Positions 7,544 through 57,637 of a DNA stretch of 64,000 nt are shown in pieces. Position 1 is the stretch's first letter, and the number at the start of each line of letters is the position of its first letter. Made by a program: the position numbers and the translations under genes. The notes under the pieces were generated by a model, which saw nothing but the letters and a program-made list of their open reading frames with translations, had not been told where the DNA came from and made no database searches. This stretch comes from Serendipita indica DSM 11827 (lineage: Eukaryota > Basidiomycota > Agaricomycetes > Sebacinales > Serendipitaceae), in assembly GCA_910890315.1 (NCBI GenBank), contig CAJVGD010000042.1, positions 1,674,001 to 1,738,000 on the forward strand, given 5' to 3'.

Positions 7544-10500
7544 ATGTCGACCCAAAAATCAACAAAGCACAAGAAACGACATCTGCCCACAGATTCATCG
7601 GGATCCTCGTCAGCACAGCGCCCAACAGGCAAAAAACGTCAAGTATACGACACGCTCAATGTCGGCCTGGATGTAGTGGCCAACATATCCGAGGGATCAG
7701 ATGTACTCGCTCCTCTCAAGGCAGCTTGTCGAACCACCAAGTCAATTCTCGAAGTCGTACAGGCAAGTTGGCGAACCTGCCACGACTGCGTCTAACGGAT
7801 TCAATAGGCAGCAGAGATCAATCAAGAGGAATGGATTGATCTAGCTGGACGTTTGAAGGAATACATGTCTGCGCTCGAGAAACAAATCACCCTATTGGAG
7901 GCATATCCTGAGGAAGACATGGCCGTTGACGAGGCGTTTAGGCAACCGCTAATCCACTATGTCGAGTACGTAGCACTTCAAATTTGCTTCAGTAGGCTGA
8001 GTGATGTAGATTTCTCGAAAATATGCACGATACAATTGTCGACCTGAAGGAGAAACGCAACCGCAGCAAGCTCAGCATCTTTAAAGCGTTCAGCAAAATG
8101 AAAATTGACGCAGAAGAGATTCGCAAACTCAATCGAGACATCGAGGACCGGCATAGGCAATTCATGGTGCGAGCCTCATCGACCTTGTTCACAGTACTCA
8201 CTATCGACAAAGGAGGCCTTGAGTCTTTTTACAGCCTTGCGTATTCAAAATGTCGAGAGGAATACCAAAGCCACCAAGGCGAACGTGGAGACCATTCTTA
8301 CAGACAGTAAGCTGAAATTTGGGATGAGACGCTTACTAAACATTCGAAGTCGACGCCCATGCTATACTACAGCTACCGGTGGTAGCTTTCGTCGCATCCT
8401 CAGTCCACAAGCCCTGTCTGAAAGGAACACGCGAGGCTGTTCTTCAGACCATCTACCGCTGGGCCGACGATGATACGTCGGACAAGCCGATATTTTGGCT
8501 GTGTGATATCGCCGGCTCTGGCAAGTCCACAGTCGCAATGTCTGCAGCAGAGACTTGGAGGAAGGAAGGAGTGCTAGGAGGCCGGTTCTTCTTCTCCATT
8601 GCAAACAGTGAAGGATCTACTACAGACAAGTTCTGCTCTACAATAGCAAGAGACCTGGTCGACTACATACCCAGGCTTGCGCCGCACGTCGCTGGAGCCG
8701 TGAAGCGGCACCCGTCGTTCATGCGAAGCTCTCTAGAAGAACAGTTCCAGAAGTTCGTCATTGATCCCATCCATCATAGTCAAGAACGTGTCATTCTCGT
8801 CATCGACGCTCTTGATGAATGTAAATCTGGATTGCAGCGAAGAGAGCTCGTCGAAACGCTTTCTACAGCTGTTCAAGGAACAAAAAACCTCAAGATCTTC
8901 ATGACGAGTCGGCCAGATCCCGTAATCCAAGCCGTCTTGGGGTCACTCTCTCAATCAAATCCAAGTTGGAGGACCGACTGCACGATGTCAAGCATCATGA
9001 TAACATTGGTGATATCGCAGTGTACATACACAAAGCACTAGACAACGTGCTGCCGGAGGGCAAAAGGCAGAGACTGATCGAAAAGGCCAACGGATTGTTC
9101 ATCTGGGCGAGCACTGCATGTCGAATGCTCACCAGCCAGACAAGCTTAAGCCCTCCGGAGATCACGTATGATCACCTCATGTCCATGGACAAGGCTGGGG
9201 CCATAGACGATCTATATAACCTCATCTTTGTGCGCATGGATCCCGAGTTCCACACGATCATGTACAAGATGCTCGCTGTACTGCTTGCAGCGTTTGAGCC
9301 GCTGACTGCGACGACGTGGACGACATTCTCAAGCATTCCGGGGTATACGGAAGTGCAAAGGCACTGGTACGGAATCTCGGCAGCGTACTTGTTGAGGATG
9401 ATACCACGAGTCTAATCCAATTTCGGCACCCCACTTTCGTCGAGTACCTTCGGCGTTGCTCTGTAGCCCCACCCATCGATACGCGTAACAACGTGTATAT
9501 CAGGATTCCTGACGCACACGGCCAAGCCGCAGTTTGGTGTCTCAAACATCTCACATCGCGAAGAGATGGTCTCAAGTTCAATATATGTCAACTGGAGTCA
9601 TCTTTCTATCTTAATAGAGAGATTCCAAACCTCGATACGAGAGTATCGAGATTCATTTCAAGACGCCTGCGATATGCCAGCTCTCATTGGCTGTTCCATG
9701 TGGCTGAAGCTGACGACAGCTGGCGGTCCATCGTCAAGAAGGAAATCCAACAGATTATTCAAGTTCCATACGTGTTATACTGGATGGAGGTTCTGAGCTT
9801 GACCAGAGGAGTGCCACGAGCAATAACCGGTCTTCGAGCTATTAAACGCCACGCAGGAGTAAGTTGCTGATCCGAGCCAATTCAACTCTGACGCCACAGA
9901 TAGCTTGAAACATGGGATGAAGTCAGCATGGACCAAATTCGACGGTTTATAATGGTATTTTCAGTACCGATTCAAGAGAGCGCCCCACACATATACATTT
10001 CCGCACTCCCGTTCACCCCTACAAATTCAATATTGCATATCGAGGGTGCGAAGATGTATAGTAATACCCTCTGTGTAACCGAAGGCCTCGAGGAAATGTA
10101 TCCTGGGCTCCCAAGTAGGCTTCGAGGTCATGAAGGCAGAGTCAACGCCGTCGGATTCTCGCCAGACGGCTCACAGATTGTGTCTGGCTCGTGGGACAAC
10201 ACAATTCGATTGTGGGACGCGGCAACTGGTCAGGCTGTGGGAGAGCCACTCCGAGGTCATGAAGGCAGAGTCAACGCCGTCGGATTCTCGCCAGACGGCT
10301 CACAGATTGTGTCTGGCTCGTCCGACAACACAATTCGATTGTGGGACGCGGCAACTGGTCAGGCTGTGGGAGAGCCACTCCGAGGTCATGAAGATTGGGT
10401 CAACGCCGTCGGATTCTCGCCAGACGGCTCACAGATTGTGTCTGGCTCGTGGGACAACACAATTCGATTGTGGGACGCGGCAACTGGTCAGGCTGTGGGA

Positions 10501-12132
10501 GAGCCACTCCGAGGTCATGAAGGCATAGTCAAGGCCGTCGGATTCTCGCCAGACGGCTCACAGATTGTGTCTGGCTCGGACGACAAGACAATTCGATTGT
10601 GGGACGCGGCAACTGGTCAGGCTGTGGGAGAGCCACTCCGAGGTCATGAAGGCACAGTCAACGCCGTCGGATTCTCGCCAGACGGCTCACAGATTGTGTC
10701 TGGCTCGTCCGACAACACAATTCGATTGTGGGACGCGGCAACTGGTCAGGCTGTGGGAGAGCCACTTCGAGGTCATGAAGGCATAATCAAGGCCGTCGGA
10801 TTCTCGCCAGACGGCTCACAGATTGTGTCTGGCTCGGGCGACAACACAATTCGATTGTGGGACGCGGCAACTGGTCAGGCTGTGGGAGAGCCACTCCGAG
10901 GTCATGAAGGCACAGTCAACGCCGTCGGATTCTCGCCAGACGGCTCACAGATTGTGTCTGGCTCGTCCGACAACACAATTCGATTGTGGGACACGGCAAC
11001 TGGTCAGGCTGTGGGAGAGCCACTCCGAGGTCATGAATATGAGGTCAAGGCCGTCGGATTCTCGCCAGACGGCTCACAGATTGTGTCTGGCTCGTCCGAC
11101 AAGACAATTCGATTGTGGGACGCGGCAACTGGTCAGGCTGTGGGAAAGCCACTCCGAGGTCATGAATACACAGTCAACGCCGTCGGATTCTCGCCAGACG
11201 GCTCACAGATTGTGTCTGGCTCGTCCGACAAGACAATTCGATTGTGGGACGCGGCAACTGGTCAGGCTGTGGGAGAGCCACTCCGAGGTCATGAAGGCAC
11301 AGTCAACGCCGTCGGATTCTCGCCAGACGGCTCACAGATTGTGTCTGGCTCGTCCGACAACACAATTCGATTGTGGGACGCGGCAACTGGTCAGGCTGTG
11401 GGAGAGCCACTCCGAGGTCATGAAAATTGGGTCAACGCCGTCGGATTCTCGCCAGACGGCTCACAGATTGTGTCTGGCTCGTGGGACGACACAATTCGAT
11501 TGTGGGACGCGGCAACTGGTCAGGCTGTGGGAGAGCCACTCCGAGGTCATGAAGGCACAGTCAACGCCGTCGGATTCTCGCCAGACGGCTCACAGATTGT
11601 GTCTGGCTCGGACGACAACACAATTCGATTGTGGGACGCGGCAACTGGTCAGGCTGTGGGAGAGCCACTCCGAGGTCATGAAGGCGGAGTCAGCGCCGTC
11701 GGATTCTCGCCAGGCGGATCACAGATAGTCTCCGGCTCGTGGGACAAGACGATCCGATCATGGGATGCAGAAACAGGTGAGTTCAACTCAGCTCGCCTTC
11801 GAGATTGTGATGCGACTCGACAAATAGCCTTGAGTGCAAACGCAAATTCTTCTGGTAAAGAGTCTGTATATTCAAGCCTCAGTGAGGGTCTACCGGCCAC
11901 TCCTCTAAGAATCCATGTACCTGGATTCCAAATTTGCTTACTCTCGCAGGACGGCTGGGTACATTCTTCCGGCAAACGTCTCTTCTGGGTACCACCAGAC
12001 AATCGACGCGGACTAAAATATCCATATCTCCTGACAATTCCAAACGAGGCTCCATTCCGCAAGACCAAGTTTGATTTCACCAATTTTCAATGTGGTCTCT
12101 CTTGGACAAATGTTCGAACAAATGTCCCATAA
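7544..12132 (+). CDS. NACHT-WD40 NLR-like protein 1, with two apparent frameshifts
   Basis: STAND/NLR-type signalling ATPase. Start ATG 7544 gives a basic N-terminus, a helical region, then a NACHT domain with Walker A DIAGSGKST (about 8510) and Walker B VILVIDALDECKS (about 8790), a helical linker, and 13 WD40 units (10120-11796). The C-terminal cap contains LLSQDGWVHSSGKRLFWVPP. Introns: 7763-7807 (GC-AG), 7966-8009, then at 8167, about 8311, about 9861 and 11777-11827. Their positions match those of the paralogue on the minus strand at 38388-43127. Two breaks are seen in the NACHT/linker part by comparison with that paralogue: an extra 2 bp in the CTCTCTC run near 8946-8953, and one base missing near 9309-9316. 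Either the gene is a recent pseudogene or these are sequence errors; the WD array itself is fully open. Related fungal genes (HET-E/HET-D/NWD) act in non-self recognition; that role is inferred here. Confidence 0.85.
10120..11796 (+). repeat. Tandem array of 129-bp WD40 units (12 near-identical plus 1 diverged)
   Basis: Thirteen consecutive 43-codon units start with LRGHE and end with GQAVGEP. Units 1-12 are almost identical at DNA level; unit 13 (from 11668) is diverged. Differences between units 1-12 fall almost only on residues 6, 7, 8, 9, 25 and 27 of the unit (for example GRV, DWV, GIV, GTV, YEV, YTV, NWV; and W, S, D or G at 25), with single changes at 34 (unit 7) and 42 (unit 8). This is the pattern of high-internal-conservation WD40 repeats in fungal NLRs. 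Confidence 0.95.
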
Positions 12133-13602: not shown

Positions 13603-14949
13603 CAGTCGTCTCCCCTCGACCTGATGTTTTCCTACTAGTCGGTCGTCTCCCCTCGGCCTGGCTTTTCTTCAGTCGGTCGTCTCCCCTCAACCTGACTTTT
13701 CTACTAGTCGGTCGTCTCCCCTCGGCCTGGCTTTTCCTTCAGTCGGTCGTCTCCCCTCGGCCTGGCTTTTCTACAGTCGGTCGTCTCCCCTCGACCTGGC
13801 TTTTCTTCAGTCGGTCGTCTCCCCTCGACCTGGCATTTTCTACCAGTCGGTCGTCTCCCCTCGACCTGACTTTTCCTCAGTCGGTCGTCTCCCCTCGACC
13901 TGGCATTTTCTACCAGTCGGTCGTCTCCCCTCGACCTGGCATTTTCTACCAGTCGGTCGTCTCCCCTCGGCCTGGCTTTTCTTCAGTCGGTCGTCTCCCC
14001 TCGACCTGGCATTTTCTACCAGTCGGTCGTCTCCCCTCGACCTGACTTTTCCTCAGTCGGTCGTCTCCCCTCGACCTGGCATTTTCTACCAGTCGGTCGT
14101 CTCCCCTCGGCCTGGCATTTTCTTCAGTCGGTCGTCTCCCCTCGGCCTGGCTTTTCTTCAGTCGGTCGTCTCCCCTCGACCTGGCATTTTCTACCAGTCG
14201 GTCGTCTCCCCTCGACCTGACTTTTCCTCAGTCGGTCGTCTCCCCTCGGCCTGGCTTTTTCTTCAGTCGGTCGTCTCCCCTCGACCTGAATTTTCCTACT
14301 AGTCGGTCGTCTCCCCTCGACCTGGCATTTTCTACAGTCGGTCGTCTCCCCTCGACCTGGCATTTTCTACAGTCGGTCGTCTCCCCTCGGCCTGGCTTTT
14401 CTTCAGTCGGTCGTCTCCCCTCGGCCTGGCTTTTCCTACTAGTCGGTCGTCTCCCCTCGGCCTGGCTTTTCCTTCCAGTCGGTCGTCTCCCTCGGCCTGG
14501 CTTTTCCTACTAGTCGGTCGTCTTCCCTCGGCCTGGCTTTTTCTACTAGTCGGTCGTCTCCCCTCGGCCTGGCTTTTCCTTCAGTCGGTCGTCTCCCCTC
14601 GGCCTGGCTTTTTCTACTAGTCGGTCGTCTCCCCTCGACCTGGCTTTTTCTACTAGTCGGTCGTCTTCCCTCGGCCTGGCTTTTCCTTCAGTCGGTCGTC
14701 TCCCCTCGGCCTGGCTTTTCCTACTAGTCGGTCGTCTTCCCTCGGCCTGGCTTTTCCTACTAGTCGGTCGTCTCCCCTCGGCCTGGCTTTTCCTTCAGTC
14801 GGTCGTCTCCCCTCGGCCTGGCTTTTCCTACTAGTCGGTCGTCTTCCCTCGGCCTGGCTTTTCCTACTAGTCGGTCGTCTCCCCTCGGCCTGGCTTTTCT
14901 TCAGCCGGTCGTCTCCCCTCGACCTGACTTTTCCTCCAGTCAGTCGTCC
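13603..14949. repeat. Minisatellite, about 39 copies of a ~35-bp unit
   Basis: Direct tandem repeats built on AGTCGGTCGTCTCCCCTCG followed by (G/A)CCTGGC or ACCTGACT and a T-rich spacer of variable length (TTTTCTTC, TTTTCCTACT, ATTTTCTACC). Unit length varies between about 31 and 37 bp, mostly from the spacer. Variant spacers occur in local clusters: CTACC types are common before 14250 and CTACTAG types after 14400. The plus strand is strongly pyrimidine-rich. Long open frames run through it on both strands because few stop codons fit the unit; these are not taken as genes. Confidence 0.95.
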
Positions 14950-32600: not shown

Positions 32601-35600
32601 CTATACGCTTTCAATTGATGGATCTGTCTTTGCTGGTGGATATCTGCACCACTTATCGGCGATAAAGGTCACCGTCCATGTCCCTGTCGTCCATCAACAA
32701 TCAGATTCTACCATGAGAGATCCGCTTACCTTCTGCTGATGAGAAGATTGAGTATTCCGAGCTCATAATGCCCGCAACGGTGTGCGTCTCCAAAACTTTT
32801 GGTTTGCGACCGCGAGCGTATTGTGCTAGCTCGGCGCGTTGATATGTAAACGTGAAGGGCGGTTCACCGATAAGAGTAAAGACGATCTCCGCTTGTTCGC
32901 CTGGGGAGATGGCTCGTCAGCAAAGCCCAAAAAATCTCAAGACGCCTACCTTCTCTGATGTTTTCTTCAAACCTAGTGCCATGGCTGACTTGTGCAGAAG
33001 GAATCTCGTGTACCTTGAGTTTGACCTCCGAAATCGTAGTTTGGCATTGCGCTTGCTGATGCGCGATTGACACCACGGAGAAATCGCCGGGAACATTGGC
33101 CACTGTGGTGTATTTTGGTTGCCTCTGAATCGTTTGTCGAATCTTGTCGTTGAAACGATAGCTGCAAAAGTATGAGCAAGAACGCCGAGTATGAGTGTCA
33201 AAGCCTTACTTGATCGTCCACGGAGGAATACCTTCCAGCTGGAACTGTAATAGATCGCCAACACAGACGTCTGTCCTCCGTTCGAACGGTACAATCATCG
33301 CCGTCTCAGCGACATCTACCCAGAGTTTTCTTCGCTCCATATCGTCCTTGACCTCCTCGCAGCTCGATGCATCGTGTACAGAATCAATTGTGATGAGATA
33401 AGAGCCCACCGTAGTGAAGAAATAATCGGGAAACTGGGGCTGCCACTCATGCGTGGAAAGTTCCAGCATCTCCTTTTTCACCTCACTCGAGGCCATGTTC
33501 TGTATCGTGAAATGCACGATGAACGGTGGCTTCCCAGAGAGGACCATGAGACCGTCCTGGCTCACTTGATGCTCGGGCCTTGGCATGAACGCGTCATTCA
33601 AGCAATAAGACAAGCGAGCAGAGTTCTTGAAATAGGCGTTGGGCCTCGCAAGTACTTGTTGCTCCCACTTGAGACTTGTTGCTTCGCGGTTTTCCGTTTG
33701 CGGTGAGTATCGCGCATCGCCCAGTGCGAGGATCTCGTAGAATACACGACCGGCACGATTGGTGAGCAGTGGGAGTCGATAATCTGGTTGCAATGAGCTG
33801 AACTGATGCTGCTCCGGCCTTTCCTTATCCAACGTGGTCTGATATGTGACCTGGAAAGGAGGAGCTCCTTGGAGAGAGATATCCACATAATCAGGTGCAG
33901 AGACGCAGACAGGTGGCCGGATGTGAGACCCATTCCTCGCTTGTGAGACGCGTGTGTCTTTCGCAAGTCGAATGCTTGGGAGAGGAATGTGCTCGACAAT
34001 GTATGTGTGTTCTGGAACAATTACGGTTCCAGGACATTGATCTCCCGTGACCTGCAGCTGATCAGAGACACCAAGAGCAAACAGAAAGTAGTTACCTCGA
34101 CAATCTCATACACTCCTGGTAATTTCACCACAAGGACATCGTTTGCCGAGTCGAAACGTTCTCTCCTGATACGTTCAGGGAAGGCCATGTGACGCCACGC
34201 AACAGACCAAGGCTAGTCGTGGTGAGAAGTCGAATCAATACATTGCAGAGATACTTACCCCGTCACCCGTGAGTCGCAAAGGCAGCCTCGCCTTTTCGCC
34301 AACCAGTACTTGGGTTGTCCTGACTCCGTCCTTTGCATAAAACTTGGCAGTTGGCTATCAACGAGGTCAGCCACCGCACGGATTAGGAAAAGTGGCCAAC
34401 AGACCTTGACTCTTCGGACATTAACAGATACACCTGGCACTACCAGGATCTGCTTGCAGCCATTTGCGTCCTCGACGGAAACTTGACGTGGTCAGCACAG
34501 ATTAGGTACTTACCAAGAGAACTCACCGAGGTCCACAAGTATTGTACCGCCATCCTTATCCACATCCTTCGGGATCTTGACGCTGACCGTGTGCTTGTCC
34601 TTCTTGATACCATTGACTTGGAACTTTTCCGTTCCGCTAGGTCCTACAACCTGCAACTCCAAGTTCCAGGGCGCAGTTCCCTTTAAGATCACTGGAATGT
34701 CGACTACATCGCCAGAGCAGCTTTGGACTGTCGTCTCTCGCGTTCGACCTCGACCGGCAGTACCAGCAAACATAGCACCCGCCAATGGATGAACTGTTTG
34801 CTTGATGACGGGACCATTGAGAGGAATGTTCCTGTAGTTCTTGTCGGAAAGAGCTGTGAACTTGTAGACGTAGCTGCCACTCCGCTCAGGCTGGAGTGTG
34901 ATCTCGCCTCGAGACCCATCAATGACGGTCGAGTTTGTAGTCTCATGGCCACCGTTGTGTTGCGTCGTATAGTGAACACGGAATGGCGGAGTACCGTGCA
35001 GAACAAGATTCGCGGTAACTCCAACATCGCCGGAACTGCAATTCATAGTCAGCTCGTGCTCAAATAGTGGTTCACCCACGCACCATTCATGGAGCTTGTG
35101 CCATTCAATATCTGCTTTGGGTCGAGGCACCTCGATGACGCGACAACTCTCAGGACTGAGGATATCACTTCTACAGACCTGTCCTTTTGCGCTGAGCAGG
35201 CGATATGTACCAGGTGCATCAACTTTGAACTTGAGGTTCCTGTCTGTAGCCACCAGTTCCTTTGTCCATCCCTTTGCCACCGTACTCGGATTCGCACCGC
35301 TAGCCTCGAGCGTGGTAGGCGTGTATTGAACTGCAATTCTCCAAGGCCCATCTCGCTGATCACCAGAGCGTGCAGAGATGGAGAGAGTGGCATCTTCTCC
35401 TTGCAAAAGATTGACCGATTCGCCAGCGCGGCACTTGTCAAAGGCGAATTCAGCTGGCTTGAGAACAGAGATGGTGCGAGTGTAATCGGCTTTGTGGCGG
35501 TGCGTATGAGTGAAAAAGTCCACTCGGTTGCCTAGACCGTCGGTAATCGAGTTTAGGGAATAGACATGCTCGCCTAGCGAGTCTAGATCCAGAGCCAGTG

Positions 35601-37019
35601 GAACTGTGAGCTCCCTTGCCACAAAGGAGGACTCCTTCGGTCTCTATGGCTTTGGTCAGGATGATCAATAGGAAGAGGAGTTTACAAACGTCTTTGGTGG
35701 GATCAAGACCCTCGACAGTGGTTACTTCCCGCTTCCCAGCAAGCTCTCGCTGCCATTCAAGCGTAAGAGGGGGTACGCCAAACATCTGCATGTTAATCTG
35801 TTCCTTTTCCCCGTGACACCGGACCTTATTATCTTCAGCACCGACAAACTTTGCTGATGGGCAATTGACAACAGTGGTTGTCACGGCTCTCAAGCGAACC
35901 TCGGTTCGTCCATCCTGAACGTTCTCCAATCTCAGGATACCCGGCTTGTTAACCTTGATCCATCTCAGACGCTGCGTTTTCTGCAGGGGTGGATGTTTGT
36001 CTGTCGAGGTCTTTTGTTGCTGCGAAAGCTGAGCAGATTTGACGCGTGGGTCGTCATACTCTCCAAATTCAATGTCGAACGCCTCGTCCTCACTAAGGAC
36101 AGCCGCCGCTGATTCTTCTGCGGCGACGGTTTCGACCATTTGGTGGGCATCCACTCGCGAGAGAATGTCTTTCTTCTTGATGTGGTGGGTGCTCCGACTA
36201 GTTGGGTCGTGTAAACTTGCGAGAGTGTACGTAATGTACGTTGGCTCTGTGTTGTTGAACAAGACCGGGACGAAGGCATGGCCAACGTGGTCGGGAATGC
36301 AGAACGATTCAAGGTAAGGGTTGAGTTTTGCCGTGCTGTGGATATCAGCTAGGAACGAGACAGCAAAGTGAAAGGGCTTACCTGATAGGAGAAAGCTTGA
36401 CGGTGTGCTGGCCGAGCAAATGCTTGTCGCCACGGAAAAGCTCGCTTATGGACACTTTGTAGCCATCAATTCCAACATAGTCCCCACGAAGCTTTTGCCA
36501 GATGTCTACAACCAAGTTAGAATTGAAGTGCATGCTGGGTAAAGCTCACTGTAAACGAGTGCTGGAACGAAACTCGCTCCGCTAAAGCTGAGCTGTACGA
36601 CATCACATGAGTGACGTAAGCCTTTAAAGAAGCTACATACTGTATAATTCCCAAATAATAGCCAGTTGATCAAGCCCAACAAGGCTATTTGCAACACGCT
36701 CGACTGCCAACGAAAAGTCAAGCGTGGTATGCGCAAGAAGCGGAGGAAGAGGAGAAATAACGCGTCGTAGAGCACCCATTTGAAGAAGAACCTGACAGAG
36801 TGACCTTCGATCAATGCGCCGAAAAAGGAGAATGCTTTCAAGGCCTGTAACACCAAGTTGAAAAGCAAGGCGCGTCAGCAAAACGCGTCGACGACGAGGA
36901 ACAGAATGATAGAGGACAAATATGCCTACTTGAAGCGCGAGGCCGAGACTGAGGATGTACAACCGCTGCGAGGGCGCGTCGATGAGCCGTTCTGGGAGAC
37001 GTGGGCCTTTGGCGGCCAT
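32601..37019 (-). CDS. POM152: Nucleoporin POM152
   Basis: Transmembrane ring component of the nuclear pore complex. From the N-terminus: MAAKGPRLPERLIDAPSQR, hydrophobic segments within about 37000-36630 (FFFKWVLYDALFLLFLRFL and LQIALLGLINWLLFGNYT) that anchor it in the pore membrane, then a luminal region of repeated Ig-like beta-sandwich domains. The repeats share G.PP(F/L)...Y/W-type strands, for example FGVPPLTLEWQRELAG, HGTPPFRVHYTTQHNGG, KGTAPWNLELQVVG, EGIPPWTIKYRF and GEPPFTFTYQRAELA. The C-terminus TWTVTFIADKWCRYPPAK is the conserved Pom152 ending. About 1,230 residues and around 15 short introns. Head to head with the thioredoxin gene. Confidence 0.92.
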
Positions 37020-38387: not shown

Positions 38388-41300
38388 TTACTGATTGGCG
38401 TTGGTTCGAACCTCGGTCCAAGATAGGCCACATCGAAAATGGGTGAAATCGAGTTTGGTTGCACGTGAGGGACTCGTCGTTGGCATAGTAAGAAGAAGCC
38501 GAGGACGAAGTAGTCCGTGTCGATTGTTCGGTGGTACCCAGAAGAGTAGCTTGCCGGACGATTGCACCCAGCCATCGTGCGAAAGTAAGCACTGATCGAA
38601 ACCAGGTGCAGATATTCTCACGGAAGTATTTGTTAAACCGTCCATGAGACCAGAAGGCTCTGCATAATCCAATGGGAATTGATTTGCTTCTGCACATTTT
38701 TAGATGACAGGCGATACAGTGCGGCTACACTCACCAGCCTCCGGAGTCCACAATCTAATTGTCTTATCCTTTGAACCAGACACAATTCGCGAACCGTCTG
38801 GCGAGAATCCGACAGTCAAGACTGAACCTTCGTGACCTCGAAGTGGCCCTCCCAACGGTTGTCCGGTTTTTGCGTCCCATAGTCGAATCGTTCCATCTAA
38901 GGAACCGGAGACGATTCGGGAGCTATCTGGTGAGAATGAGACGGCCAAGACCGAAGATTCATGACCTCGAAGTGGCTCTCCTAATGGGAGACCAATTTCC
39001 ACATCCCATAATCGAATTGTCGTGTTCTGTGAGCCAGATACGATTCGTGAACCATCTGGTGAGATCCCCACCGCCAAGATAGGGCCTTCGTGACCCTGAA
39101 GTGGCTCTCCCAACGGGTGACCAGTTTCCACGTCCCATAGTCGAATTGTACCGTCTTCTGAGCCAGAGACAATTCTCGAACCGTCTGGCGAGAATGCGAC
39201 TGCCTCAATGGAATTTTCATGGCCTTGAAGTGGCTCTCCCAAGGGTTGCCCGGTCTCTGCGTTCCATAGTCGAATCGTCCCGTCATACGAGCTGGAGACG
39301 ATGCGGGTGCCTTCTGGCGAGAATGAAACAGCTCCGACGGCGCCATGGTGACCTCGAAGTGGCTCTCCTAAGGATTCACCAGTGTCGGCGTTCCATAGTC
39401 GAATTGTCATGTCCTGTGAGCCAGAGGCAATTCGTGAGCCATCTGGCGAGAATGCGACGGTCGAGACCGACTTTTCATGGCCTCGAAGTGGCTCTCCCCA
39501 CGGCTCACCGGTGCCTGCGTTCCAAAGTCGAATCGTCTTATCGTCTGAACCAGAGACAATTCGCAAGCCGTCTGGTGAAAAGGCGACGACCCAGACCCAC
39601 CCTTCGTGGCCTCGAGGTGGCTCACCCAACGGCTCACCAGTACCTGCATCCCATAGTCGAATTATCTCGTCTTTTGAGCCAGAAGCGATCCGAGAGCCAT
39701 CTGGAGAAAACAGGACGGCCAAGACCGCGTCTTCGTGGCCTAGAAGTGGCTCTCCCAAAGGTTCATTGGTGCCTGCGTTCCATAATCGAATGGTCGCGTC
39801 CCTTGAACCAGAGACTATTCGCTCGCCATCTGGTGAGAATGCAAGGGTACAAATTGAATCTTTGTGTCCTTTCAGTGGGTCTCCCAACGGCTCGCATGTA
39901 CTTGTATCCCATAATCGAATCGTTCTGTCGTCCGAGCCAGACACAATCTGTGAGCCATCTGGAGAGAATGCGATGGCACAGATTCGGGCTTTGTGCCCTA
40001 GAAGTGGCTCCCCGAACGGTGCGCCGGTGTTTGTATCCAACAGGCGAATTGTATTGTCTTTTGAGCCAAATGCAATTCGTGAGCCATCCAGTGAGAATGC
40101 AATGGCATTGACCGACTCTTCCCGAGTTAGAAATGACTTCCCTAACGGACGACCAGTGGTTGCATCCCAGAATCGAATCGTCAAATCTTTTGAAAAAGAG
40201 ACAATTCGTGAGCCGTCTGGTGAGAATCCGACGGCGATGACCGAGGATGCATGACCACAAAGGGATGTTCCCATTGATCGACCAGTATCTGCGTTCCATA
40301 GTCGAACAGTCTGGTCATGTGAGCCTGAGATAATGCGTGAGCCGTCTGGTGAGAATGCGACGGCCTGGACGGAGTCGTCGTGACCTCGAATCGGCTCTCC
40401 CAACGATTGACCAGTGCCTACATCCCATAGGCGAACTTTCTTATCATCTGAGCCAGAGGCAATTTGTAAGCCATCAGGTGAGAATGCGACAACGTTGACG
40501 GCCTTTCCGTGACCTCGAAGGGTTCTCGGCAGATTGGGGTATATCTCTTCGAGCCCTCGAACCACTTTGAAGGTATTTATATACCTCTGTAAACCCTCTT
40601 GATATAATTTTGACTTTGTAGGAGTGAAGGGAAGCGCAGAAATGTAGATGTGTGGAGCGCTGTCCTGGATCGGCACTAAAAACGCCATCATAAATCGCAG
40701 CATCTCCATGATAGACTTTCTAGTTGCCTCTTCCAACTATCTTTGTGTAAATTGTGGAATTTATTAAGAATTCCAACTCACCCCTGTTTGGGCCATAAGA
40801 GCTCGAAGACCGGCTATTGCCCGTGAAACTCTTCCGGTGAAGCTCAGGATCTCCATCCAGTATAATGGGTATGGAATTCGAAGAATATATTGAAGATCGT
40901 TCTTGAGTGTGCGTCTCCAGTCTTCGTCAGTGTCTGCAGCATGTGAAAACCAGTGCGAACTAGCATATTGGAGCCTTCTTGGGATGAACTTTGAGACTTT
41001 GGCGTCGAGGTCCGGAACCTGTCTATTTAGGTAGAAGGATGACTCGATCCGACAAATGTTGAACTTGAGACCTTCAGTCCGCGACTTCAAGTTCTTCAGG
41101 CACCAGGATGCAGCATGACCATGTGCGCTGGTGATGTCGATATGTATTTTGTGACTGCCCTCGACAGATGGAGCGTCAGAGCAGCGTCGAAGGTACTCTA
41201 CAAAGGTTGGATGGCGAAATTGAATCAGTTTGGTTGTCTGATTCTCGGTAAGTACAGTGCCAAGGTTCCGTACAAGCGCTTTAGCACTTCCATCGACTTT

Positions 41301-43127
41301 AGCGTGCATGGCGAGGTTGTCCAGATCATTCGTGGTGAGCGGTTCATATGCGGCAAGCAACAGAGCAAGCATCATACAATTGACCGCGCGGTCATCGGGG
41401 TTTGTGTGTTCGAGGATGAAAGTGTACAGATCGTCGATCACCCCGCCTTGCATCGAGACCAAACGGTTGTATATACTCTCAGGAGACCTCGAACTGGTTT
41501 TGAACATTCGACATGCAGTGCTTGCCCAGATGAATAATCCGCTGGCCTTTTTAACCAATCGGTCTATCTTGTCTGAGGATAGTACCGTATGTAGCGAATG
41601 GGTTATGTATTTCGCAATGTCGTCAATGTTATCTTGATGATTGACGTCGTGGAGGCGATCCTTCAACTCTGCTTTGATTGAAAGGGGCCCTAAAACTGCA
41701 TCTATGGCCAAGTCCGGTCGACTAGTTATGAATATTTTGAGGTTCTTTGTTTCTCGCGCAGCCTGAGCAAGAGCGTCGAGAAGGTTGCTACGTTGCACTT
41801 CTGATTTACATTCGTCGACGGCGTCGATGACAAAAACCACTTTCGCTTGTCGATGGCGTAGCGGGCCGGTGAGTAGGTTTCGGAGCTGGTCATGCAACGA
41901 ATTTCGCATGATGGCAGGGTTTTGCTTCAAGGCTTGCGCAATGTACGGGGTGAGTTCGCGCATGTGCTGTGCCAGTTCCTTGGCTAAGGTCGAGCAAAAC
42001 TTGTCCGTCGTAGAGGCTTCGTTGCTATCCAGGGAGAAGAAGAACTGACCCCCCAGGATCCCCTCCTTCCTCCACTGTTCCACTATAGACATTGCAACTG
42101 TGGATTTGCCGGAACCCGCTATGTCACAGAGCCAAAATATCGGCTTCCGCGAGATATCATCCTCTACCCAGTGCCGGATTGTCTGAAGGACAGCCTCTCG
42201 TGTTCCTTGCAGACAAGTATTGTGGACCGACTCCGCAACAAATGTTACCATTGGTAACTGGAGTATAGCAGAACAGTCGGCTGGAAATGCTAAGCAAGCA
42301 CCCCATAGAATAGTCGAGCTCACCATCTATCAGAGTTGTTTTTACGATGGATTTGGTAGCCTCCGCACTCATCCTGGTAGCCTGCATATTTGCCCTGGTA
42401 TTCTCCGCAATGGATTTGGTAGCCTCCAAGTTAGCCATGATAACCTCAGTATTTTGTTCAATGACTTGAGCACGGTATCCGGTAAAAAGAGCCAATGCAT
42501 CCTATCGTATATATTGAGATCGTGCACATGCTCAGCGAAGTCCATACCATGAATCGCCTGTGGAGGTCCTCGATATCGCGAGCGAATTTACGGATCATCC
42601 CTGCATCAAATTTGGTGTTTTGTGCCGCAGTAGTGAAACTTCGTCGTTGATAATGGCCCACTGTCTGATAGAGATCCTCGAGGGATCTAAACCCATCAAC
42701 GTCTTGGATAGAATTTCTATTCTCACTCACTCCACATAATGAATGAGTGGTCGGCTGAAGGCATCGTCGACGGCCCTTTGTTTGGGTGGGTATGTTTCAA
42801 ACAAGCCGATCTGATTCTCAATAGACAACATGTGCGCCTCCAAACGTAACCCTAGTTCTATCCAATCTTCTTGGTTGTCATCCACGGCCTGGCGTTATTC
42901 ATTTAGACAACGGCAATAACAGGAGACACGTCTTGTGCCCACCAACTCACTTGGAGGAGATCCAGAATTAATTTCGTTACTCGACATGCTCCCTTGAGAG
43001 GTGCGAGGACATCTGCTACCTCGGATCCATTTGCTACAAAGTCGAGTACGAGGCTGGCCCGGTTGTACACTTGGCACCCCCTGCGTGATGAGGTTCTGGC
43101 GCAAGAGGATGAAGTTGGTGGACCCAT
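38388..43127 (-). CDS. NACHT-WD40 NLR-like protein 2, intact
   Basis: Paralogue of NLR1. Seven exons (43127-42951, 42888-42731, 42686-42548, 42501-42324, 42280-40782, 40736-38735, 38689-38388) add up to 4,455 nt and 1,484 residues with all phases agreeing. Helical N-terminal region with repeated ATKSI segments, NACHT with Walker A DIAGSGKSTVA and Walker B VVFVIDAVDECKS, a helical linker, then 14 WD40 units that are clearly diverged from each other (LRGHGKAVNVVAF, IRGHDDSVQAVAF and so on). A C-terminal cap after the last intron holds LLSHDGWVQSSGKLLFWVPP. An upstream in-frame ATG (43325) would add 66 residues; 43127 is preferred because it aligns with the NLR1 start. Likely role in recognition and cell-death signalling, by family only. 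The gene looks whole. Confidence 0.92.
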
Positions 43128-48564: not shown

Positions 48565-52375
<3,811 letters not shown>

Positions 52376-52496: not shown

Positions 52497-55400
52497 ATGA
52501 GGCGTTGGGATTCGACTGGAGGTGCTTCCTGGCAGGATCAAGGCGCGTCTCGTTACCAATGTTGAATTGTTGCTGAAAACGCTGAATAGACGATGGCTAT
52601 GGGCGAGGCAGAAGCTCTCGAAATGGGACACATAACTACTCCGATGGTGAAGGAGAGAGCCGGTCCACGTCGCAGTCATTCTCTCATCTCTCTGAGTCGA
52701 TTCGCTCCCTCGCGTTGGTCGAGTCGGAGGGCTCTATCCCAGAAATCATCCAATTACAAAAGCCATGGCTCTACAAACGACATTTGACAAATGGAAATCC
52801 CTCCCCATCGCAGGCGAGGCACAATCGCTTCCACCAGTGGCGGCTGCAAGACAAGCTCAAAACCGGCAACGGAGCCATCGTTGTCTGCCTAAATCTAGAT
52901 GTAGACCCTCCGGACGTTGTCAAAACCCAGCCATGCGCCGTCCTCGAAGGTTGGGTTGACCCTCGAAAGCTAGGTTCGGCCAAAGCGCTCGAAGCGATCG
53001 GCAAAAACCTATGCCAACAGTTCCAGAGCTTGAACCCTCGTATCAAGTACAAACCCTTCCTCGACCCATCCATCGACGAGGCCCGTCGTTTCTGCGTCAA
53101 TCTGCGCAAGACGGCAAAGGACGAACGCCTATGTTTCTACTACAACGGGCATGGCGTGCCGAAACCGACGAGTTCAGGAGAGCTCTGGGTCTTTAACAAG
53201 ACATACTCTCAGTATATACCCGTATCCCTCTATGATCTTCAAACGTGGCTCGGTAGTCCTGTCGTTTACGTGTGGGACTGCTCAGCGGCAGGCAACTTGG
53301 TCACCAACTTTATCAAATACGCCAAGAAACGAGACGAAGAGTCGGTAGCGAGACATGGTGGACATTTGGATGGAAGTCCGCCCCACTCGTCTGCGATTCA
53401 GCTCGCGGCTTGCCTTGCAACCGAAACTCTCCCAATGGCACCTGACATGCCAGCCGATATGTTCACATCTTGTCTCACCTCACCAATAGAGATGGCCTTG
53501 CGCTTCTACTATTTGCACCAATCCCCACCGCCGGGCGTCACCCTCGACATGTTACATGAAGTACCAGGAGACTTGAAAGATCGTCGCACTCCACTTGGGG
53601 AATTGAATTGGATATTCACTGCAGTCACCGATACGATTGCATGGACGTCCTTCCCTCGACCCATTTTCAAGCGGCTCTTCCGCCAGGATCTTCTCGTTGC
53701 CGCTCTCTTCCGTAACTTCCTACTTGCAGAACGTGTTATGCGCAATTACCATTGTACTCCCCACACCATTCCCGCACTTCCCTCCACCGCGACACACCCA
53801 CTCTGGGCGGCTTGGGATAGGTCACTCGAAGACATCATCAAGCAGCTGCCGGACTTGATCAAGTCCGCGAACCCTCCCAAGCAGCCGACTCTCGAGATTA
53901 TGGAAGGCAAGCCCTATATTCCTACCCCTTTCAAGTACGAGTACAAGCCCAGCTCGTTCTTCACGGACCACCTCACCGCTTTTGAGCATTGGATGTCTCA
54001 AGGAGGTGGGGCTTTGATCAGAGTTGGCCCTTGGTCAATGTCACCTCTCGAGGATTCGGATGAAGAGACACCCCAACCTACAGAGGAGAACCCACGCTCC
54101 GAGCTTGTGCCTCGCAAGCCACCTGCACAGCTCCCCATTCTTCTGCAAGTCTTGCTCTCTCAAGCCCATCGAATGAGAGCACTCACTTTGCTCTGTCAAT
54201 TTGTGGACCTTGGCCCATGGGCGGTATATCTGGTGTTGGAGATTGGCATTTATCCCTACGTCCAAAAGCTGCTACTTTCCCCTCAAAGCGACTTGAAACC
54301 TCTCCTTATTTTCATCTGGTCGAGGCTCATCGCCTTTGACAAGACCTGTCAGGTCGACTTGCTCCGAGACCTTCACTTCACCTACTTTGGCACGATCCTC
54401 GACTATTCAAACCCTGTCGGTCTCGCCAACACATTTGAACATCGGGCAATGTGCGCGTTCATCTTGGCCTCGCTATGTCGTGACCACCCACAAGGACAAG
54501 CGGCATGTTTGGCATGGAACGACGGAGCCCTGATCGACTTTTATCGCTACCATATGACCAACTCTAGCGACTTTCTCCTCAAGCAGTGGTGCTGTTTAGC
54601 CATGGCGCAAATGTGGGATGGGAATGACGACGTAAAGGAGCGAGCTACCATGCAAAACGTACCCAACTTCCTCTTGGGACTACTCCAAGAGGATGTCTCG
54701 TGCGAGGTCCGTGCTTCGGCACTCTATGCGCTTGCTATCTATTGCGGTGCAACTGGGTCCGCCAATGATGAGATTAGTGGAGAAGATGGAACAGGTCGAA
54801 TGACCCAGCTTACCGAGGACCAGCACCTAGAGCTCGAATTCGGCACCGCATATGATGCCATCCGTATCATCAAGGTACGTCTGTTCAGTAGAGACTACCG
54901 TCTAGTATTGACTTTCGTCAGAGCGATGCCAGCCCCATTGTTCGTAAAGAGGCGGTGGTTCTCATCAGTGCGCTAGCCAATGAGTGGCGAGGTTACTTTA
55001 TCGTTGCGGCATGGGTTCATTGGGAAGAGGAGAAGGCCGCCAAATCTGCTGATGGCACGGCATCCAATAGCATTGCCGACAATGCTCTAGAAGATTGGAT
55101 GCGTGGTCTACGCTGCCGAAGTGCAGAGGCCAAGAGGCAGCATCGGAAGTTGCTCAACAAAGTCTTCTTCCTCTTGACTCATCTCTATGATCTTGCGGTG
55201 GACCCACATGTAGAGGTCGCAACACTAGCGATGACCGTAGTGGATTTCATCACGGCCATGTTACTCGAATCTCCATTTGCCCGGATACAAGGAACGACAG
55301 TCCGAGCATTGCCTAACCTTCCCTCAAACAGCAAGTCCCGTACAAGCGTCTCGTCGGCCGCTACCAGTGCAATTATATCTAGACAAGGCTCCACGGCAAA

Positions 55401-57637
55401 TATGGCGCCTCAATCACCCAATCCAGGACTCACCAGAACAGATAGCACCACCCGATCCACATTCCCAGGTCTCATGAGGACGAGTTCGATTGCCTCTGCA
55501 CTTGGTTCGCTTGCCGGACTTGCTCTTGGGACCCCTACCGCCGAATACAGCGCCCCTCCGAGCCCCTCACTCAGTCATAAGAGTGACCCCGACAGTCCGC
55601 CTGGACCCGCCGTCAATATTGCTCGGTATATTTCTCCGTATCCTCAGCAGTCTGGCCCTACGTCCCCACTTTCACGAGTCGGCTCATCCTCCTCAGTCTC
55701 GAGTCAGTTGAATCAAGCATACGGGAATGGGCAAAGTGGAAGTCAGCATGAGTCATTCATCGCCAGTCGCTATATGCCCTCGGACATTGTCACTGCTCTT
55801 ATAGCTCGCGATCTCATACGATTCTCTGGAAGACGACGGAGCTCGGATAATAATCCGCCTGGCCATAACTTATGGCAGGACTTTAATGTGGATAAGGGAA
55901 GGTTGGATGAACTAGGAGACATAGGACTTGACGCTGGCGCAACTTTGGTCCAAACGTTGCCGCTGAAGAGCAAGCTATACGACTGGTGCCTCGAATATTA
56001 CAAGGAGCCGCAAATGAGGGTCAGTGCTTGCAAAGTGTGCTAATATCATGCTCACCGGATTTCTAGCACCTTGACGAGGACGAACCTGGTAGCGTTCCAT
56101 ACACCCGGCAACTGTGGAGAAGGGACCGTGACGAAGGAATCCTTAGATCGTCACGGATTCAAGGTCAACAAGCGCGTGAGTATACCAGAAGATGTATAAC
56201 CCCAGACTGATCAGACGCAGCAAAACATGCATGGGGCCATACACTATCCTCGTGGAAGATTCCGTTCTCCCCGTCACGAATGACATTTCACCACTTTGAT
56301 TCTCACGTCGCAATTTCAAACGAAGGGACACATATTAGGTGAAACAAGTAGTCGTTCATGACCGCCCTCTGACTCTTTGTTAGCCTTTACGACTGGCGGA
56401 GCGGATCGAAGCTTAATGGATTTAACAATGGCAATCCCAAAGGAACCACCGTCACGTCGCTGCATTTCGTTGACGAAGAGATTGGTGGTGCACTCGTGGT
56501 CGGCTCTTCCGACGGTGTAGTCAAAATCTACAACAACTATGACCCGGCATATAGTGATGGCCAACCTATTCAACTCGTTTCTGGTTTTAGAGCCCTCCCT
56601 TCACTGATCCCCGCTACTCGAGGCGTTGGGATTGTCAGCGAATGGAACCAGCCCTTGACAAGGTTGCTTTGTGGAGGAGATTCAGATCGTGTCTATGACT
56701 GGGATGCCATTTCGGAGCGCTGTGTTACGGTGAGTGGGGGCCCTCGGGATGAGAGGGAGAGACAACTGATATTTTGAAAGATGATGCCGACAGAGGAGAA
56801 TTGTCCCGTCACTTCGATCACTTCCAACCCTCACAGTCGTCGATCCTTTGTCGTTGGATTCGGGAACGGTGCTCTCAAAGTGTTTGACACACGAGCGCGC
56901 TCAGTACAAATGACATGCATACAAACACGTCGAGAGCATCGTGCTTATATTGTTAACCTACGATACCAGACGGGAGCGAGCAAACAGCTTCTGTCAGCAA
57001 GGTAGGTTGGACACATCTTGGTTTTCCGTATCTTATGGCTCGCAGCGTCGATGGAAGCGTTCACCTTTGGGATCTTCGATTCGCAGATGCTGTCGTTCAG
57101 TCGTGGGACATTCACACACAAGGACTTGCTGCATTCGACGTTCATCCAAACAGCAATGTATTTGTAGCGTGGGTGAAATTCTCTTCTGCTAGCAATTTGT
57201 GCTTACGCTCTGGTTGTAGGACTTCATCTCTTGGTCGTTCTTGGAGAAATCAAGCCGTCTCGTTGTACGGTTTCACCTCTGCTCAAGAGCAACGAGCAAT
57301 GCAGGTTGAAGGCGTTTATCAGGATAGCTCCACATCTATCCTCAACACTACGTATCCAACTGGAATTACTGCACCTTCGCGAGCCCATGTCGGTTCTGCA
57401 AACCCACATGTCACTCAGAGCGTCGTTACCTTCCACCCGGCGGAGATGTTCTTCGCACTAGGAACTGCCGATGGCACAATTCGTCTACAGGGCCCACACT
57501 TTGCCAACGAGGGAAGCTTTGTCGACACCGAGTCAAATGGGCCCGTCACACCGCTCTCCAACGGTTATCAGAATGGGAGGACCTCGGCGTATTTTGACCA
57601 TGGAGACGGTCGTATTGACTTCCCTACCATACGATGA
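52497..57637 (+). CDS. KOG1: TORC1 scaffold Raptor (KOG1)
   Basis: Substrate-recruiting subunit of TOR complex 1. The start is inferred: a 25-nt exon 52497-52521 joins in phase to 52590 and gives MRRWDSTGDDGYGRGRSS. The N-terminal raptor (caspase-like) domain runs from WRLQDKLKTGNGAIVVCLNL through DVDPPDVVKTQPCAVLEGW, CFYYNGHGVPKPTSSGELW and YVWDCSAAGNLV, keeping the His and Cys equivalents of the caspase dyad. HEAT-like repeats follow (ASLCRDHPQGQAACLAWNDG, IVRKEAVVLISALANEW). A Ser/Pro-rich linker comes next, then a WD40 propeller with VAISNEGTHIRS and VGSSDGVVKIYNNY. About 1,500 residues, with one large first coding exon and around ten introns. ISC1 follows 187 bp downstream on the same strand. 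Confidence 0.93.

Follow-up and report, generated by a model that had tools for sequence, protein, structure and literature searches.

A homogenised WD40 repeat array with variation concentrated at five codons in a NACHT-WD40 gene of Serendipita indica

The NACHT-WD40 gene and its repeat array

The window analysed here was a stretch of 64,000 nucleotides from Serendipita indica DSM 11827 (GenBank assembly GCA_910890315.1, contig CAJVGD010000042.1, positions 1,674,001 to 1,738,000 of the forward strand), and all positions below were counted within it. The plus strand carried a NACHT-WD40 gene, referred to as gene A, with predicted N-terminal exons from 7544, a NACHT region at 8340–9870, and a tandem array of 13 WD40 units behind it. 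Twelve of these units were nearly identical at the DNA level, and the differences among them were concentrated in codons 6, 7, 9, 25, and 27. A related gene on the opposite strand, paralogue B, was located 26–27 kb from the gene A array and served as a control. The features of both genes are listed in Table 1.

The array was contained in a stop-free open reading frame (ORF) of 742 codons (9904–12132), which was composed of a linker, the 13 units, and a C-terminal tail, and which was predicted from the sequence to be separated from the NACHT region by a short intron. Both Pfam models scored well over their cut-offs, NACHT (PF05729) with 45.2 bits against a cut-off of 26.7 and WD40 in 13 stretches. 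An intron at a place matching the one that cuts unit 13 of gene A was predicted in paralogue B, where a stop codon lay between the units and the tail. The first coding exon had no Pfam match, and no family scored above the cut-off in the N-terminal domain as a whole, where exon piece 3 gave GOST_TM and LRR_12, both weak and below the cut-off. A HET domain gave no Pfam match in the N-terminal ORF or in the four predicted exon pieces, which were 31–73 residues long, a length at which a divergent domain could escape.

Table 1. Features of gene A and its paralogue in the 64,000-nucleotide window
Feature	Position	Strand	Remarks
Gene A predicted first coding exon (N-terminal region)	7544..7762	+	open from ATG; 51% identity to 42951-43118 minus
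Gene A predicted exon 2	7808..7966	+	55% identity to 42730-42888 minus
Gene A predicted exon 3	8011..8166	+	39% identity to 42548-42682 minus
Gene A NACHT and following region	8340..9870	+	PF05729; three pieces in three frames: 8343-8951, 8948-9307, 9334-9864
Gene A linker exon, NACHT to repeat array	9904..10119	+	58% amino acid identity to paralogue B
Gene A homogenised WD40 units, 12 x 129 bp	10120..11667	+	variable codons 6, 7, 9, 25, 27
Gene A unit 13	11668..11776	+	first 46 bases homogenised, rest diverged; predicted intron cuts the unit
Gene A predicted 51-bp intron (GTGAGT...ATAG)	11777..11827	+	from sequence and splice ends; frame kept spliced or unspliced
Gene A C-terminal tail and stop codon	11828..12132	+	64% identity to the paralogue B tail, 38397-38654 minus
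Paralogue B	38397..43118	-	exon order as in gene A; NACHT in one ORF (40764-42326), 14 diverged WD40 units (38715-40520), tail

Tandem Repeats Finder reported a single 129-bp array of 12.7 copies with 0% indels, and the 13 WD40 units followed one another in frame from 10120, one every 129 bases, free of indels. Pairwise DNA identity among units 1–12 was 90.7–100%, with a mean of 95.2%, as expected from the twelve near-identical units described in a first-pass annotation of this stretch, and 11 of the 12 were distinct. The start of the array was sharp, the 129 bases upstream of unit 1 being 23% identical to a unit. Nucleotides 1–46 of unit 13 differed from the consensus at 3 sites only, all in codons 7 and 9, whereas nucleotides 47–108 carried 26% differences; unit 13 was excluded from the 12-unit statistics. 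The annotated interval, 10120–11796, had the right start, but its last 20 bases (11777–11796) fell in the predicted intron and are probably non-coding.

Sixteen of the 129 sites were variable in units 1–12, and 12 of the 16 were located in codons 6, 7, 9, 25, and 27, which make up 15 bases (Fisher test, 3e-11). Counted by codon, nine of 43 varied, eight of them with a change of amino acid and codon 1 with a silent change only, in two units. The other variable sites were single-unit replacements, V8I, A34T, and E42K. Accordingly, the residues named in the first-pass annotation were repeatedly variable at 6, 7, 9, 25, and 27, but residue 34 changed in one unit only, and residues 8 and 42 had been overlooked.

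The residues found in units 1–12 were Gly, Asp, Tyr, or Asn at position 6, Arg, Trp, Ile, Thr, or Glu at position 7, Asn or Lys at position 9, Trp, Ser, Asp, or Gly at position 25, and Asn, Lys, or Asp at position 27. Across the 13 units, 11 different combinations of the five positions were present. The front block (6, 7, 9) GRN was paired with the back blocks (25, 27) W-N and S-N, and the front block GTN with S-N and D-N. This varied pairing points to exchange inside units, and repeated mutation may also have produced it. A higher-order repeat structure was not found, as adjacent units were no more alike than shuffled units at lags 1–6.

A formal count, a check proposed in the first-pass annotation for its claim that almost all differences change an amino acid, was made by the Nei–Gojobori method and gave 4.93 non-synonymous and 1.26 synonymous differences per unit pair. 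The differences were thus mostly non-synonymous by count, but the whole-unit ratio was no proof of selection, as described below. When the codons were divided, the proportion of non-synonymous differences (pN) in the five codons was 0.362 and the proportion of synonymous differences (pS) in the other 38 codons was 0.0099, so that the first was 36.6 times the second (bootstrap 2.5% bound, 16).

Modelled propeller and the published Podospora sites

The AlphaFold2 model of the whole ORF had a moderate mean predicted local distance difference test score (pLDDT) of 63.8. Its best PDB match was the repetitive propeller 2YMU, which was also the top sequence hit for the whole ORF, but the template modelling (TM) score was 0.33, with an rmsd of 24 Å over the full length. 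In the printed alignment, most differences between the units of 2YMU fall at the position that matches position 9 of gene A. In a model of units 8–13 with the tail, the 10-residue means of pLDDT were 83–98 over residues 1–250, and the tail was low. About 255 residues of this model fitted solved WD40 propellers, natural or designed, at 0.9–1.4 Å. Strands a, b, c, and d of its first unit comprised positions 8–13, 19–24, 28–33, and 39–45, respectively. When the variable residues were mapped on this model, as had been suggested in the first-pass annotation, residues 6 and 7 were located in the d-a loop, residue 9 at the beginning of strand a, and residues 25–27 in the b-c turn. The same loop placement is described for HET-E in PMC1805685 (Paoletti et al. 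2007).

In both models the tail of gene A had strands of low confidence, which suggest that it may hold a cryptic propeller blade. A seven-bladed fold with six units has one place left, which the tail might fill, and by the same reckoning 13 units and the tail would correspond to two sets of seven blades. However, the whole-ORF model did not superpose on a double propeller, and the 14 units and tail of paralogue B did not fit this blade count. For HET-E, a model with two propellers of seven blades each, three of the blades being cryptic, has been published (PMC12222747; Ament-Velasquez et al. 2025).

In Podospora, codons 7, 9, 25, and 27 are described as being under strong positive selection, in pairs flanking the constrained codons 8 and 26 (PMC1805685), and the same selected codons were reported again in PMC2873952 (Chevanne et al. 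2010). Positions 10, 11, 12, 14, 30, 32, and 39 are given in PMC12222747, where the printed HET-E unit starts TGTQTLEGHGGSVWSV. This unit was aligned by eye with the gene A unit, and HET-E residue 6 corresponded to gene A residue 1, so that the published sites became positions 5, 6, 7, 9, 25, 27, and 34 of gene A. The offset of 5 and the correspondence to the het-d/het-e sites, both put forward in the first-pass annotation, were therefore correct. These seven sites took 93% of the non-synonymous differences among the gene A units (permutation, 1e-5) and, as 21 bases fixed a priori, 13 of the 16 segregating sites (Fisher test, 4e-10). Codons 7, 9, 25, and 27 alone (12 bases) took 9 of the 16 (Fisher test, 1e-7). 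The clustering of the variable sites, whether calculated on the five codons or on the a-priori sites, excludes chance.

Gene A resembled the HNWD genes het-d, het-e, and het-r of Podospora anserina in the order of a NACHT domain followed by highly identical WD40 repeats, and in the variable codons 7, 9, 25, and 27, which lie in the same register as pairs flanking the conserved residues 8 and 26. The unit is 42 residues long in HNWD and 43 in gene A, and HNWD genes usually have 11 units, compared with 13 (12 of them homogenised) in gene A. The partner in Podospora is a glycolipid-transfer protein. Because a HET domain was not found in the short N-terminal pieces of gene A and its NACHT frame was broken, membership of the HNWD family was not shown.

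Paralogue B, bacterial arrays, and fungal NLR genes as comparisons

The gene A units and the paralogue B units had a mean identity of 69%. The ratio of replacement changes at the five codons to silent changes elsewhere was 1.16 in paralogue B, compared with 36.6 in gene A. Positions 27, 9, 25, and 6 ranked first to fourth in variability in paralogue B, and position 7 ranked ninth.

For a bacterial control, 79 WD40 loci were fetched, drawn from the 80 best among 574 confirmed matches; these loci were not independent of one another. Arrays of at least 7 units were kept (n = 97), and units with fewer than 30 aligned codons were dropped. Codons 39–43 were left out of the silent class in this comparison, which gave a ratio of 31.4 for gene A instead of 36.6. 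The most variable positions of the 97 arrays were on average 7, 25, 9, 6, and 27, in this order, which are the five positions of gene A. The bacterial ratios had a median of 0.96 and a maximum of 3.7. Among all arrays compared, gene A alone had six or more units with a mean DNA identity of at least 88%, and no bacterial array had six consecutive units of this kind. Two Poribacteria loci and one Aminicenantes locus (L047, L059, and L046) had mean identities of 83–87% over their best six units; their variable positions were much as in gene A, and their silent sites were clearly diverged (ratio 2.2–3.7).

Since the five positions headed the bacterial ranking, the choice of positions is generic to WD40 repeats, and the positional match alone is no pointer to incompatibility. 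The special feature of gene A is the uniformity of its silent sites, not the positions. The combination of homogenisation with diversification at the binding-face codons was supported as real and was far outside both controls. These comparisons give a caution for the field: positions 6, 7, 9, 25, and 27 vary in WD40 repeats generally, and only the contrast with silent sites argues for a recognition repertoire. Near-identical units with diversity kept at hotspot sites are also the likeness between gene A and the Highly-Repetitive WD40 proteins of PMC5587647 (Hu et al. 2017), half of which are bacterial and over a third fungal, with their diversity at interaction hotspots.

Arrays of the gene A type are already documented in fungal NOD-like receptors (NLRs). 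In a fungal NLR set, high internal conservation, defined as more than 85% identity over at least 100 residues, was reported for 21.6% of WD repeats, and the phenomenon was seen in both ascomycetes and basidiomycetes (PMC4986451; Dyrka et al. 2014). The 12 units of gene A, with a minimum of 90.7% and a mean of 95.2% DNA identity, were above this threshold. Gene A was alike in kind to these NLRs, with NACHT (PF05729), homogenised repeats, and hypervariable codons on the modelled binding face, and it stands beside them as one more case, its paralogue in the same window being unhomogenised. According to PMC9815663, basidiomycete NLRs lack HET domains, which agrees with the failure to find one in gene A if the window is taken as basidiomycete. 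Among the papers listed in searches of an open-licence collection, none was recognisable by its title or abstract opening as functional work on a basidiomycete gene of this type. The pair of NLR paralogues, 26–27 kb apart, one homogenised and the other not, provides a clear added case of HET-D/HET-E-type sensor evolution with a built-in control.

Interpretation of the array and the state of gene A

The array probably forms the beta-propeller sensor at the C-terminus of a fungal NACHT-WD40 NLR of the high-internal-conservation type and was probably shaped by concerted evolution combined with diversifying selection. Unequal crossing-over or gene conversion would keep the backbone of the units identical, and selection for new binding surfaces would keep the codons of the top-face loops different from unit to unit, namely 6, 7, and 9, spanning the d-a loop and the beginning of strand a, and 25 and 27 of the b-c turn. 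The simplest explanation for conversion that passes over only the binding-face codons is selection against the loss of their diversity. Ligand recognition would be the trait under diversifying selection, and a bound ligand would activate, by way of NACHT oligomerisation, a death or signalling domain at the N-terminus.

Several observations weigh against this interpretation. The whole-unit pN/pS of the 12 units was 1.36, with a codon-bootstrap interval of 0.66–4.70, and it was 0.77 with unit 13 added; whole-unit dN/dS was rejected as proof of positive selection because the interval spans 1. Within the five codons, pS (0.349) was close to pN (0.362), on 2.8 silent sites and partly through the way in which multi-base codon changes are counted. 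This equality establishes that the codons escape homogenisation, not that replacements are in excess within them. Changes outside the five codons were few and three of the four were replacements, which indicates no purifying constraint in this small sample. The array is known from one sequence, and the number and order of its units may depend on the assembly. Furthermore, tblastn split the match of the paralogue B NACHT region to gene A into three successive pieces, each in a different frame and with no room for introns.

The frame of the gene A NACHT region broke near 8.94 and 9.31 kb, two breaks in about 490 aligned codons, so that gene A may not encode a working receptor. The chances are about even that the receptor is dead and that past selection left the array pattern behind. 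The divergence between gene A and paralogue B before, between, and after the breaks was similar in both pN (0.217, 0.229, and 0.210) and pS (0.636, 0.733, and 0.606), which indicates either recent breaks or errors of sequencing, and any loss would therefore be recent. Frame breaks were absent from the NACHT ORF of paralogue B, the aligned ORF of a PRP22-like helicase (388 residues), and the aligned first ORF of a Raptor-like gene. These unbroken ORFs spoke mildly against poor sequence, as they had been picked for length. In contrast, the array ORF was stop-free along all its codons, and an error of base calling could account for the breaks. On this evidence, recent inactivation of gene A is evenly balanced with its survival.

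The array pattern might instead reflect relaxed constraint only, with exposed loop positions tolerating any residue in any WD40 protein and with the array recently amplified. Relaxed purifying selection occurs alongside positive selection among protein repeats (PMC5120217; Persi et al. 2016), the same positions headed the ranking in the 97 bacterial arrays, four of the five did so in paralogue B, and pN was close to pS within the five codons. However, this explanation appears unlikely, because under relaxed constraint replacement could reach the surrounding silent level but not exceed it about 36-fold, and a recent amplification that left the backbone uniform would imply uniformity of the five codons too.

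That gene A works in Serendipita indica as a het-d/het-e-like gene of heterokaryon (vegetative) incompatibility is less likely still. The sensor architecture and the variable sites were as in HET-D/HET-E, but a HET domain was not found in the N-terminal pieces, the NACHT frame changed, and the positional match was generic to WD40 repeats. Even Podospora hnwd1 and hnwd3 are deemed unlikely het genes in PMC12222747. Of the incompatibility or non-self receptor proposed in the first-pass annotation, the NLR-type sensor was retained, given the NACHT domain upstream, whereas the specificity of the positions for incompatibility did not hold against the 97 bacterial arrays.

An exact 31-bp tract including codon 25 as GAC (aspartate) was shared by gene A units 4 (10555–10585) and 12 (11587–11617) and by paralogue B unit 5. 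A length of 31 was reached in 0.5% of 5000 codon-column shuffles; the tract was noticed post hoc, and the shuffle breaks the linkage of neighbouring codons and may understate chance. The tract is at most suggestive of gene conversion between gene A and paralogue B. In Podospora, exchange between paralogues is described as occasional (PMC12222747). With very low probability, the gene A array, although part of a broken receptor, could be kept homogenised and diversified as a silent reserve of binding-face variants, from which units pass by gene conversion into working NLR genes related to it. Pseudogene cassettes play this role in some antibody and surface-antigen systems. If the gene A array acted as such a donor, the tract that it has in common with paralogue B would record a transfer.

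The probability of an assembly artefact, in which short reads collapsed or shuffled the units, is slighter again. Illumina assemblies are reported to omit, shorten, or create such repeats (PMC12222747), but the codons that vary in a unit are spread over only about 66 bp, short enough for a single read, and an artefact would not restrict the differences to the binding-face codons. Targeted hypermutation of particular codons (repeat-induced point mutation (RIP), deaminase, or retroelement type) had the least probability of all: the changes were tightly confined to the five codons, but both transitions and transversions occurred without a single-base signature, and 8 of the 12 variable sites there required a transversion, so that the diversity cannot have come from RIP or deamination alone.

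An Rfam search of the whole window at gathering thresholds gave 0 matches, and no relatives were found in IMG/VR by protein search or by a 39-base exact pattern. The window that holds the two NLR genes also contained a POM152-like nucleoporin (33206–36445, minus strand), the PRP22/DHX8-like helicase (49020–50207, minus strand), and the Raptor-like gene (52586–54976, plus strand). For the ORF at 50340–51077 on the minus strand, considered as a possible adjoining part of the helicase gene, a PDB search gave no match. The Raptor gene shifted frame between 52586–54976 and 54892–56043, where there was room for an intron. A minisatellite of 38 copies with units of about 36 bp was located at 13605–14948, 1.5 kb downstream of the gene A stop codon.

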